Assembly: GCF_003634635.1 (NCBI RefSeq)
Contig: NZ_RBJB01000003.1
Span: 1,029,127-1,093,126, forward strand
Direction: 5' to 3'
Length of the DNA stretch: 64,000 nucleotides
From: Marinobacter nauticus
GTDB taxonomy: Bacteria; Pseudomonadota; Gammaproteobacteria; Pseudomonadales; Oleiphilaceae
A program made the translations under genes and the position numbers. Positions 287 through 48,980 of the stretch are shown one piece after another. Every line of letters starts with the position of its first letter. The first letter of the stretch is position 1. The notes beneath the pieces are model-generated. The model did not search any database. It was not told the origin of the DNA and saw only the letters and a list, made by a program, of their open reading frames with translations.

Positions 287-2425
287 TCAGTTGGGTTTGC
301 CGGTCAGACGCTCCAGCAGGACCAGCTGTGATGCCAGTCGCTCTTCGCCTTCCCCGGGCTGATTCTGAATGTAACTGCCATCGGGCTGCAACACCCAGGC
401 CTGGCAATTGTCCGCCAGATAGGTATCCAGATCTTCCCGCAGGCGTGCAATCAGCGCGGGCTCCTCAACCGGGAACGCGGTTTCGACCCGGTGCAGCAGA
501 TTGCGCTCCATGCCATCAGCACTGGAACAATACACCTCCGGCCGGCCACTATTACCGAAATAGTACACCCGCGTGTGCTCCAGGAAGCGGCCGATCACCG
601 AACGCACCCGGATATTGTCCGAGAGTCCCGGCACTTCCGGACGCAGGCAGCAGATGCCACGGATGACCAGATCAATCTTGACCCCGGCCTGGGAGGCCCG
701 ATACAGGGCCTTGATCATCTGCGGCTCGGTCAGGGCATTGAACTTGAAGATAATCCGCCCCTGCTCACCATAGCTGGCCTCTCGTTCGATCAGACTGATC
801 AGACGGTTGTGTAAGGTAAACGGCGCATGAAACAGCTTTTTGATCTTCAACGCCTTGCCCATGCCGGTCAACTGCTGGAACAGCTTGTTGACGTCGTCGC
901 CAATGGACTCGTCGCAGGTCATGAAACTGTAGTCGGTGTACAGGCGTGCGTTCCCGGCGTGGTAGTTACCGGTGCCCAAATGCACGTAGCGCCGCAGGCG
1001 GCCTTCTTCCCGACGGACAATCAGGATCATCTTGGCGTGGGTTTTGTACCCGACCACACCGTAAACCACGATCACGCCAGCTTCCTGCAGCCGACTGGCC
1101 AGCTCCAGGTTCTCGGCCTCGCTGAAACGGGCTCTCAGTTCGATAACCGCCGTCACTTCCTTGCCTCGACGCGCGGCATCGGCCAGGGCCTCAACAATTT
1201 CCGAGTCGGCACCGGTGCGATAAAGCGTCTGGCGAATGGCCAGCACCTGTGGATCCTTGGCTGCCTGGCGCAGCAGATCCACCACCGGGCTGAAGTTTTC
1301 ATAGGGATGTAACAGCAGCAGGGGCCGTTTGCGAATGGCATCGAACATGGATTCCTTGCTGCGAATCTGGCGAGGAATCGACGGCGAGAAGCTGGAATAG
1401 GTCAGGTCTGGCCGGTCCACCAGGCCACCCACCGCCATCAATCGAGTCAGGTTTACCGGGCCGTGGACCTGGTAGAGATCCCGCTCTGTCAGACCGAATT
1501 CCCGAAGCAGGAACTGCACCAGCTCTTCTGGGCAGTTATCCGCCACCTCAAGGCGAACGCCATCGCCAAACCGACGGCTTAGCAGCTCGCCGCGCAGGGC
1601 CGAGGCCAGGTCTTCCAGATCGTCTTCAAGCTCAAGGTCCGCGTTCCGGGTCAGCCGGAACTGATAACAGCCCTTCACCTCCATACCCGGAAACAGCTCA
1701 TCAGCATGGGCGTGAATCATGGACGACAGAAACACCAGGTTGTCACCACCCTCGCACACCTCATCCGGCAAGCGCACCAGGCGCGGCAGGGAGCGGGGCG
1801 CGGGCACAATCGCCATCCCGGTCTCACGACCAAAGGCATCCTTGCCGTCCAGCTCAACGATGAAGTTCAGGCTCTTGTTCACCAGGCGGGGGAACGGGTG
1901 TGATGGGTCCAGCCCGATCGGGCTGACCACCGGCAGAATTTCCTCGTCAAAGTAATTGCGCACCCACTCGGCCTGGGCCGGTGTCCACTCGCGGCGCCGG
2001 ACAAAGTGGATGTTCTCCTGCTCCAGCTCCGGAATCAGGACATTATTGAGAATATCGTACTGTTCGTGGATATAGTCGTGGGCAACGCGGCTGATCTCCG
2101 CCAGCACCTGTTCCGGCAACATGCCGTCGACACCCACCGTTTCGCGGCCATACTTCATCTGCTGGCGCAGGCCCGCCACCCGGATTTCAAAGAACTCATC
2201 CATGTTGCTGCTGAAAATGCAGCAGAAGATCAGACGATTGATCAGAGGATGCGTGGTATCCAACGCCTGCTTCAACACCCGGTAATTGAACTGCAGCTGG
2301 CTCAGTTCGCGGTTGAAGTAGTTCTCGCTGGCATCCAGATTCACTTCCTCACCAACGGGAGGAAGATCCACCGGCGCCGGGACGCTCTGTTCACTGCCTG
2401 TCTCTGTCACGGTTTCGCTTGTCAT
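287..2425 (-). CDS. ppk1: Polyphosphate kinase 1
   Basis: Makes inorganic polyphosphate reversibly from the gamma phosphate of ATP. The 712-residue length is normal for PPK1. The N-terminal domain has FNRELSQLQFNYRVL (about 37-51) and SSNMDEFFEIRVAGLRQQ (about 72-89). The C-terminal catalytic half has KTHAK with His463 and VHLGTGNYH with His482; their 19-residue spacing matches the phosphorylated and partner histidines known in E. coli PPK1. RTLYRT- and RARFSE-type motifs are also present. The start is the ATG at 2425. The gene lies 52 bp downstream of hemB on the same strand, an order also found in Pseudomonas. A PhoB-type repeat upstream of hemB (3607-3624) suggests phosphate control of the whole unit. 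Confidence 0.97.
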   Translation of the reverse strand: MTSETVTETGSEQSVPAPVDLPPVGEEVNLDASENYFNRELSQLQFNYRVLKQALDTTHPLINRLIFCCIFSSNMDEFFEIRVAGLRQQMKYGRETVGVDGMLPEQVLAEISRVAHDYIHEQYDILNNVLIPELEQENIHFVRRREWTPAQAEWVRNYFDEEILPVVSPIGLDPSHPFPRLVNKSLNFIVELDGKDAFGRETGMAIVPAPRSLPRLVRLPDEVCEGGDNLVFLSSMIHAHADELFPGMEVKGCYQFRLTRNADLELEDDLEDLASALRGELLSRRFGDGVRLEVADNCPEELVQFLLREFGLTERDLYQVHGPVNLTRLMAVGGLVDRPDLTYSSFSPSIPRQIRSKESMFDAIRKRPLLLLHPYENFSPVVDLLRQAAKDPQVLAIRQTLYRTGADSEIVEALADAARRGKEVTAVIELRARFSEAENLELASRLQEAGVIVVYGVVGYKTHAKMILIVRREEGRLRRYVHLGTGNYHAGNARLYTDYSFMTCDESIGDDVNKLFQQLTGMGKALKIKKLFHAPFTLHNRLISLIEREASYGEQGRIIFKFNALTEPQMIKALYRASQAGVKIDLVIRGICCLRPEVPGLSDNIRVRSVIGRFLEHTRVYYFGNSGRPEVYCSSADGMERNLLHRVETAFPVEEPALIARLREDLDTYLADNCQAWVLQPDGSYIQNQPGEGEERLASQLVLLERLTGKPN

Positions 2426-40891: not shown

Positions 40892-40900
40892 ACAGGCAAC

Positions 40901-40928
40901 AAAAAAGGCAGCCTCGGCTGCCTTTTTT
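40901..40928. terminator. Bidirectional Rho-independent terminator between DLH and csp genes
   Basis: Six A, GGCAGC, a CTCG loop, GCTGCC and six T. The symmetric A and T runs allow termination on both strands: after the hydrolase gene going right and after the cold-shock gene going left. Confidence 0.9.
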
Positions 40929-40953
40929 GGGTTATTGCTGAATCCTCAGGGGA

Positions 40954-41160
40954 TTACAGAGCAACAACGTTCTCCGCCTGAGGACCTTTCTGGCCCTGAG
41001 TTACGGTGAACTCGACCTGCTGGCCTTCGGCCAGGGTCTTGAAACCAGAGCCCTGAATGGCGCTGTAGTGAACGAATACGTCCGGGCCGCCTTCACGAGT
41101 GATAAAGCCAAAGCCTTTTGCTTCGTTGAAGAACTTAACAGTACCGGTAGTAGTAGACAT
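40954..41160 (-). CDS. Cold-shock domain protein
   Basis: A 68-residue CspA-family RNA/ssDNA-binding protein. RNP1 is KGFGFITRE and RNP2 is [23 protein letters not shown] starts the domain. I start at ATG 41160, after AGGAAG; an in-frame upstream extension is unlikely. A leader of about 165 bases follows from the promoter proposed at 41332-41360, which fits cold-shock mRNAs that are controlled by their leader structure. The name cannot be narrowed to cspA, cspD or another member from sequence alone. Confidence 0.93.
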
Positions 41161-41331
41161 ACTTAAACTTCCTGAAATCAATCATATTATCTGCTGCCAC
41201 ACACTCATAGGGTGCTGGTCAGCGTGTTACGGAAAAACAGAACTCGCGGGATCAAAAACAGGACGGTCACTACTAACTGCGGAGGTACGTCTTATTCATG
41301 AACTGCTTTGCTGATTCTTTCCTACGAACCC

Positions 41332-41360
41332 ACTCTACTCTGGAATTTCGGGCTTGCCAA
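41332..41360 (-). promoter_or_regulatory. Candidate promoter of the cold-shock gene
   Basis: On the minus strand TTGGCA (-35, 41355-41360) and TAGAGT (-10, 41332-41337) are separated by exactly 17 bp. The start of transcription would be near 41325, giving a long leader. Confidence 0.5.
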
Positions 41361-48126: not shown

Positions 48127-48531
48127 ATGCCCCGCATCCGTTCCATTATCGTCTCCATTCTGGCCATGCGACGGCTATGGCAGGCAGCGCTGTTTGTTTC
48201 CATTGCAGCCATCCTTTACCTGGCAACCACCAGTAACAGTTACCCCATCCCTGCGGCGCCCAATGACAAGATCAATCATCTGATTGCCTTTCTGGAGCTC
48301 ACCCTGGTGACCCGCCTGGCATGGCCACGGCTTTCTGTGCTTTGGTATGCCCCCGCCTTGCTGGTTTTCGGCCTGATACTGGAGGTGGTGCAAGCCAACC
48401 TGCCGTACCGGGATTTCTCCCTCGCAGATCTGACAGCGGATGCCGTTGGCATCGGGCTTGGCCTGCTGCCTTGGCCGGGACTTCGACTGGCTCAAGAAAC
48501 GGATTTGCGAAAATCGCCCGAATCCTTGTGA
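48127..48531 (+). CDS. VanZ-like family membrane protein
   Basis: A 134-residue membrane protein. It begins at ATG 48127 (MPRIRSIIVSILAMRRLWQAALF), though the methionine at about codon 14 is possible. The VanZ-like core is NDKINHLIAFLELTLVTRLAWP, followed by a helix, then EVVQANLPYRDFSLADLTADAVGIGLG, with the conserved FxxxDxxANxxG-like tail. Function is unknown outside glycopeptide-resistance VanZ. The gene diverges from cysZ. The 460 bp after its stop are gene-free and hold the CsrB-like RNA. Confidence 0.75.
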   Translation: MPRIRSIIVSILAMRRLWQAALFVSIAAILYLATTSNSYPIPAAPNDKINHLIAFLELTLVTRLAWPRLSVLWYAPALLVFGLILEVVQANLPYRDFSLADLTADAVGIGLGLLPWPGLRLAQETDLRKSPESL

Positions 48532-48538
48532 GACATTT

Positions 48539-48554
48539 CCTACATACCTGTAGG
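48539..48554. promoter_or_regulatory. Palindrome upstream of the CsrB-like RNA
   Basis: CCTACA-TACC-TGTAGG is a perfect 16-bp inverted repeat with its centre about 168 bp upstream of the proposed RNA start. Its place resembles the distant GacA/UvrY activating sites of csr/rsm RNA genes, but its half-sites differ from TGTAAG. It could also act as a weak terminator of the VanZ-like gene. Confidence 0.35.
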
Positions 48555-48598: not shown

Positions 48599-48713
48599 AA
48601 CCAAAGTCTACATGAATGATTTGTAACAACTTTCCCATGTTTGACGAGTTCGGCAACGCGTTCTGCGTGCATAGTTCACACGTTTGTAAAGCTGGCATTG
48701 GTAATATGAACAC

Positions 48714-48980
48714 CGTCAAGGATGACAGGGAAAGGACGACGCACTGGATGCACCCCGGCACGGACTGCGGGGAGAAGCAGGGACACAGGGACGCTTCGCT
48801 TAAGGGATAACGAATCGGATCGCCGGCTCGGATGCTGGCACCAGGGAACGGCAGCAAGGAATGGCAACACGGCAGTTGCCCATCGCGCACGGAGGCGCCA
48901 ACCTGTTCCGAATCTGAACTGCCCCGGACGGCGGTTCAGTACCTGTTCAAGGGCAGCTTGATGGCTGCCCTTTGTTTTTT
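48714..48980 (+). ncRNA. CsrB/RsmZ-like regulatory RNA that would sequester CsrA/RsmA
   Basis: In about 267 bases I count 15 GGA triplets, many as CAGGGA or AAGGA, the motif bound by CsrA/RsmA. CAGGGA occurs at about 48727, 48779, 48787 and 48843. A -10 (TAATAT, 48702-48707) precedes it with a poor -35, as expected for an activator-dependent promoter. A strong terminator ends it at 48980. There is no convincing ORF. The length is between Pseudomonas RsmZ (about 120) and E. coli CsrB (about 370). Several GGA would lie in hairpin loops, for example near 48765-48785. The class is inferred from motif density and signals, not from alignment. Confidence 0.78.
48949..48980 (+). terminator. Rho-independent terminator of the CsrB-like RNA
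   Basis: AAGGGCAGC (48949-48957) and GCTGCCCTT (48964-48972) pair perfectly around TTGATG. TGTTTTTT follows. The nearest upstream gene on this strand ends more than 400 bp earlier, so the terminator belongs to a transcript of the intergenic region. Confidence 0.9.

Follow-up and report, generated by a model that had tools for sequence, protein, structure and literature searches.

A stretch of about 267 nt in Marinobacter nauticus, positioned directly 3' of a VanZ-like gene and facing a convergent methyltransferase gene, raises the question of whether it encodes a regulatory RNA of the CsrB/RsmZ type, as an initial annotation of this DNA had proposed. We analyzed the locus within the window, the whole stretch of 64,000 nt that contains it, and in related genomes; the features found are collected in Table 1. 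The VanZ-like gene itself scores 27.8 bits, slightly below the Pfam cut-off of 30.1. As argued below, positions 48714-48980 in all likelihood specify a CsrB/RsmZ-type sponge RNA, a small regulator that very probably titrates the global regulatory protein CsrA.

Table 1. Predicted features of the candidate RNA and its upstream region (window coordinates; loop bases in square brackets).
Feature	Position	Strand	Remarks
GacA/UvrY-type palindrome TGTGAGACATTTCCTACA	48527..48544	+	11/12 to TGTRAG-N6-CTYACA
Weak IHF-like site, 7/9	48609..48621	-	Between palindrome and promoter
Conserved element GTTCACACGTTTGTAAA adjoining -35 region	48674..48690	+	From 57 closest members
Extended -10 promoter TTGGTAATAT	48698..48707	+	Close relatives mostly TTGSTATAGT
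Candidate RNA, ~267 nt, 15 GGA	48714..48980	+	Ends inferred from -10 and terminator
Hairpin 1, GUCA[AGGA]UGAC	48715..48726	+	85.8% of cells paired; no pair changed on both sides (30-sequence alignment)
Hairpin 2, GCA[CUGGA]UGC	48741..48751	+	Alignment and covariation check
Hairpin 3, CCCC-GCA[CGGAC]UGC-GGGG	48753..48772	+	Alignment and covariation check
Hairpin 4, large loop, two GGA	48774..48797	+	Alignment and covariation check
Conserved linker AGGGA of GCUUAAGGGA	48803..48807	+	29/30 sequences
Hairpin 5, GCCGGC[UCGGAU]GCUGGC	48822..48839	+	Best supported helix; cells paired 99.4% (30 sequences), 99.1% (family)
Short hairpin 6, CC[AGGGAAC]GG	48841..48851	+	90% of cells paired, no covariation
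Hairpin 7, GGCAAC[ACGGCA]GUUGCC	48863..48880	+	Covarying; loop without GGA in most rows
Hairpin 8, GCGC[ACGGAG]GCGC	48885..48898	+	GGA in 30/30
Conserved ACCUGUUCCGA near terminator, no GGA	48901..48911	+	Can pair with GGAUGACAGG near 5' end
Hairpin 9 with GGA (48926)	48914..48939	+	Subgroup only, 7/30
Intrinsic terminator	48949..48980	+	10-pair stem 48949-48972, then TGTTTTTTCT

GGA content and conservation of the locus

The annotation had counted about 15 GGA in 267 bases, and we find the same number: 15 GGA and 10 ANGGA motifs on the plus strand of 48710-48980. The GGA count was matched by 1 of 2000 dinucleotide shuffles and 3 of 2000 mononucleotide shuffles; no dinucleotide shuffle of the 2000 reached the ANGGA count. 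Across the window, both strands included, 267-base stretches with 15 GGA start here only, the best count elsewhere being 13.

A blastn search matched 34 of 58 genomes, including the window's own: 33 of the 36 other genomes of the genus and none of the 21 genomes of other genera. We aligned 30 same-genus sequences, the window among them; four additional matches that had no locus ids and three short secondary ones were excluded. Twelve of the window's 15 GGA stay in their column in 28 or more of the 30 sequences, while those at 48762 and 48858 shift within three columns (29/30 sequences), and identity to the window is 94.7% in GGA columns versus 81.2% in other G/A columns. The locus thus has the many GGA, above chance and kept in place, that mark the CsrB/RsmZ class; unconserved GGA placement among relatives, which the annotation had named as an observation that would count against its reading, is not what the alignment contains. 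Six same-genus genomes, one of them only 62% complete, lack the RNA, and their best methyltransferase matches reach 34-37 bits versus 368 in an RNA-bearing genome.

A covariance model built on the first 135 positions (the 5' half) matches 148 of 163 genomes of the family, in 14 of 16 genera; five genomes (G075, G077, G117, G144, and G145) are matched more than once. Rebuilding a broader model from 82 matches added two genomes (G065 and G068), in which the box described below and the GGA are also visible by eye; a clear copy was missing in 13 of the 163 family genomes, broader model included. Because the members are related, these and the following counts are not independent. Among 390 genomes from the order, 18 of the family match, with a best hit of at least 28 bits, and matches outside the family (11 with the first model and 15 with the broader one) reach at most 21.3 bits. 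The out-of-family loci inspected (11 of 11 and 2 of 15, respectively) hold 2-10 GGA per 250-260 nt, L095 being the richest, and their best GacA score is 9/12; we attribute them to chance and reject a spread beyond the family. Plasmids and phages gave no blastn match. The exact conserved-core pattern occurs in 12 named records. Eleven of them have Marinobacter in the title, and the remaining one is a MAG titled Halomonas (L152), which may be mislabeled.

Predicted structure of the RNA

Loop placement of the GGA had been named as evidence that would support the annotation. To describe it, we drew by hand a structure of ten local hairpins on the 30-sequence alignment. In this structure, nine of the 15 GGA fall in hairpin loops, five in linkers, and one in a stem; the GGA at 48771 is partly within a stem. 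Over the 30 sequences, 91.5% of cells are paired, and 13 of 57 pairs have changed on both sides against a shuffled mean of 5.6, whereas versions of the structure slid along the alignment reach at most 48.7% paired cells and seven such pairs. In hairpins 1-4, 10-15% of cells are unpaired. Family-wide, 21 of 25 pairs in the 5' half have changed on both sides among 78 distinct sequences, in an alignment that was fitted to the structure. The stems covary, and the loops carry most of the GGA.

In thermodynamic folding, the mean unpaired probability is 0.54 for G in GGA versus 0.24 for other G, and is higher in all 30 sequences; GGA are mostly unpaired in 288 of 442 cases in the full-length fold and in 323 of 442 in a short-range fold. 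In the full-length fold, 154 of 442 are not mostly unpaired, and the GGA at 48734 is just 4% unpaired. RNAalifold favors a long-range 5'-3' stem (GGAUGACAGG with CCUGUUCC) in place of hairpin 1, and the whole-RNA folding energy is only mildly low (z -1.77; 9 of 200 shuffles equally low). Overall, the GGA are predicted to be exposed in hairpin loops and single strands, as in other RNAs of the class.

Predicted promoter, terminator and upstream control sites

Both the -10 element and the terminator with T-run noted by the annotation are present: the -10 hexamer TAATAT (48702-48707) lies within the extended -10, and its position predicts the start at 48714. A generic promoter scan found no TTGACA/TATAAT pairs at the locus. 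In 81 family members, the -10 was picked by best match, with a bonus for preceding TG and GG and without using the upstream (-35-region) element; since it was picked in this way, part of the -10 conservation is built in. The T, T, and G preceding the -10 are each conserved in at least 96% of the 57 closest members and fall to 46, 71, and 92% in the 24 distant ones.

Farther upstream, the putative GacA/UvrY palindrome overlaps the VanZ-like stop codon, its center about 178 bases 5' of the predicted start. We scanned 83 members from 80 genomes (the 81 plus two read by eye) and found a GacA-type box of at least 11/12 in 72, all 165-200 bases before the -10 and 22 of them perfect, compared with 0.36% of shuffles. 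The 11 members without a box at 11/12 are L044, L002, L023, L029, L081, L107, L084, L108 (two), L096, and L110. The R/Y form of the consensus was fixed after a first scan with TGTAAG-N6-CTTACA, which had given at least 10/12 in 59 of 81 members versus 1.3% of shuffles. An upstream GacA/UvrY-type palindrome is a further mark of the class. Between palindrome and promoter, 58 of 83 members have an IHF-type match of at least 8/9, usually 93-97 bases before the -10, compared with 16% of shuffles. The window's own box scores 11/12 and its IHF-like site just 7/9.

The element next to the -35 region has the consensus TTCACACGTTTGTMA in the 57 closest of the 81 members, and mainly its TCACA part remains in the 24 distant ones. 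It perhaps consists of two outward-facing GacA half-sites, or it could be an OmpR-family site. Against a Pho-box consensus, it scores at least 11/18 in 60% of the 81 members versus 24% of shuffles; PhoB is encoded, and a pstS search returned one match, below its cut-off. Because the GacA box is far more specific, we set the Pho box aside and keep control by PhoB only as a weak idea.

The partner proteins expected of such a system are encoded in the same genome. CsrA (65 residues, 94 bits) is specified by a gene adjoining one read by eye as aspartokinase, and a UvrY/GacA-type regulator scores 301 bits against a curated cut-off of 280, its frame intact with the sole stop at the end. The genome also encodes a second CsrA-domain protein (L040 1474-1788, minus strand, 52.5 bits). 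Elsewhere in the window, 40898-41333 on the minus strand matches the cspA thermoregulator family over its full length (85.8 bits, gathering score 78).

Size series and a second candidate RNA

When a simple terminator rule is used to set the lengths, 75 of 83 members span 196-270 nt and hold 12-18 GGA. Longer or repeated-module forms come from other genera of the family: L103 (620 nt, 38 GGA), L107 (631 nt, 35 GGA in repeated modules), L106 (529 nt, 24 GGA), L084 (361 nt, 20 GGA), L128 (344 nt, 21 GGA), and L105, which is long and whose end the terminator rule did not find. L108 carries two tandem short GGA genes of 150 and 169 nt (1501-1909, minus strand), each with a hairpin and T-run, and its genome also has a standard copy, L109. 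Predicted size ranges from about 200 to more than 600 nt on a constant promoter plan, so the members offer a natural series for relating the number of CsrA sites to switch strength.

A bolder proposal, conceivable though on balance doubtful, is that the Marinobacteraceae possess an unnamed modular Csr-RNA family. Its constant 5' module (GUC-GGA-GAC, a GC-GGA hairpin, and AAGC...GCUU-AAGGGA) would be followed by a remainder that has grown or undergone tandem copying. The resulting RNAs, at 600 nt or more and with 35-38 GGA, would exceed E. coli CsrB in size, and the promoter of the family would hold a second, proximal GacA contact made of outward-facing half-sites (TTCACA-N4-TGTMAA). If this were true, promoter-proximal half-sites would account for the crosslinking of UvrY close to the -35 of E. 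coli csrB.

The broader model also scores a second candidate Csr RNA in the genome of the window, outside the window itself (G000:C2:436865-436980, or L168 1501-1616; 19.2 bits), with 13 GGA and 9 ANGGA in 260 nt and a GacA-type box, TGTGGGATATCTCGCACA, of 10/12, 70 bases upstream. Five of the RNA-less genomes (G004, G026, G096, G126, and G148) have a weak broader-model match of 12.5-14.3 bits at another stretch, whose 260 nt hold 11 GGA; the GacA box, again 70 bases upstream, is perfect in four of them and 11/12 in G126. From this pattern, the group would seem to have a pair of Csr RNAs, distinguished by a box that is far in one (the csrB/rsmZ arrangement) and near in the other (the rsmY arrangement); the boxes and the GGA carry this reading, as the scores alone would not. 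Two neighboring GGA-rich stretches of G180 (L157 and L169) have GacA-type boxes of 10/12 and 11/12; in the genus of that genome, no copy of the main RNA was seen next to the methyltransferase gene.

Alternative readings of the locus

Three other readings of the stretch have to be weighed. That it encodes a small protein would accord with the five ORFs of 64-98 codons that overlap it, and a 27- or 29-codon remnant of the 79-codon frame, from the ATG at 48722, is present in 16 of 30 sequences. However, the 79-codon frame stops after 1-73 codons in 29 relatives (at most 35 codons in 26), of two minus-strand frames, one is uninterrupted across the RNA in 10 of 30 sequences and the other in 8, and changes over the short frame are even across codon positions (90, 81, and 98). 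With the longer frames broken in most of the 30 sequences and no codon-position bias in the short one, we agree with the annotation that there is no usable ORF and regard a protein product as scarcely credible. It is also very unlikely that the stretch makes no RNA of its own and is just the 3' portion of the VanZ-like mRNA, or a terminator region that also serves the convergent methyltransferase gene. Its position directly behind the one gene and facing the other would fit, but it is preceded by a conserved extended -10 and upstream element, and it persists in members in which no VanZ-like gene (11 of 83) or no methyltransferase gene (17 of 83) turned up in the examined flanks. Judged by sequence, the locus has its own promoter and intrinsic terminator and no conserved reading frame, as RNAs of the class do.

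A structured trans-acting RNA that works mainly by base-pairing with mRNAs, for example through ACCUGUUCCGA, and for which the GGA are secondary, is somewhat less remote, yet still improbable. Such an RNA would account for ACCTGTTCCG, which lacks GGA, usually sits 33-41 bases ahead of the point where the terminator stem ends, and is matched at 8/10 or better within the RNA in 74 of 83 members versus 5.1% of same-stretch shuffles. Against this reading, the ACCUGUUCCGA element can pair with the 5' end as a closing stem, GGA columns are better conserved than the others, and GGA are multiplied in the long forms from other genera. We therefore retain the CsrA-titrating sponge RNA as our reading. 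The conserved GGA, the upstream GacA/UvrY-type box, the partner genes, and the covarying GGA hairpins all support the CsrB/RsmZ-like RNA that the annotation had claimed.

Proposed mechanism and comparison with known systems

We propose that phosphorylated GacA/UvrY, a response regulator, would bind the far-upstream palindrome, and that IHF probably bends the DNA between palindrome and promoter so that RNA polymerase could start at the extended -10. The resulting RNA of about 267 nt would display many GGA in hairpin loops and linkers, bind several CsrA dimers, and draw CsrA off mRNAs; in this it very probably works like CsrB, and it may thereby affect lifestyle. The RNA is a likely CsrA antagonist for a widespread marine bacterial family, in most of whose examined genomes the model finds it, and the conserved promoter-proximal box makes a second GacA/UvrY contact testable. 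Among the open-licence papers listed on Marinobacter small RNAs, CsrA, and GacA, no earlier description of the RNA was found.

The annotation had proposed a comparison with the Rfam models for CsrB, RsmZ, and other Csr/Rsm RNAs. When this was run, none of the Rfam 15 Csr/Rsm families (CsrB RF00018, PrrB_RsmZ RF00166, and others) matched at gathering score at the locus or at 16 family loci, a relaxed E-value search at the locus gave chance-level matches only, and CsrB (RF00018) had no match in the whole genome. The best RsmZ match in the genome, L031 (25.7 bits), is under the cut-off and is the sole one with E below 0.01, with seven weaker; it reads as a gene end plus terminator away from the locus, and we rejected it as RsmZ. 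These results bear out the suggestion of a lineage-specific form. On its sequence features, the RNA is a new, lineage-specific member of the known CsrB/RsmZ functional class, a branch spread through the Marinobacter family.

Among known systems, the locus resembles E. coli csrB (RF00018) in its many GGA, its terminator, a UvrY palindrome about 180 bases upstream, and an IHF-like site between. In E. coli, TGTGAGAGATCTCTTACA runs from -191, giving the same promoter plan, and PMC4682653 describes a UvrY palindrome centered at -183/-182, a putative IHF site between palindrome and promoter, optimal UvrY binding and activation that depend on IHF, and another UvrY crosslink close to the -35. The two RNAs differ in length (267 versus 369 nt) and in motif content (15 versus 22 GGA, 10 versus 7 ANGGA). 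GGA hairpins and a GacA box are shared with Pseudomonas PrrB/RsmZ (RF00166) and RsmY, the P. aeruginosa boxes being placed at -75 (rsmY) and -196 (rsmZ) in PMC4950607. The locus gives no match to the Rfam models of these RNAs and, as the annotation stated, the RNA is about twice as long as RsmZ, at about 267 nt against the 133 positions of the RsmZ model. RsmW of P. aeruginosa (RF02809), described in that same paper as having 7 GGA and a suggested 3'UTR origin, weakly matches the 3' end of the RNA (17 bits, E 1.4; gathering score 52). By description, the RNA is also like Aln1a-c of Alteromonas (PMC5864184) and Pf1-3 of Pseudoalteromonas, which are likewise lineage-specific marine CsrB-like RNAs.
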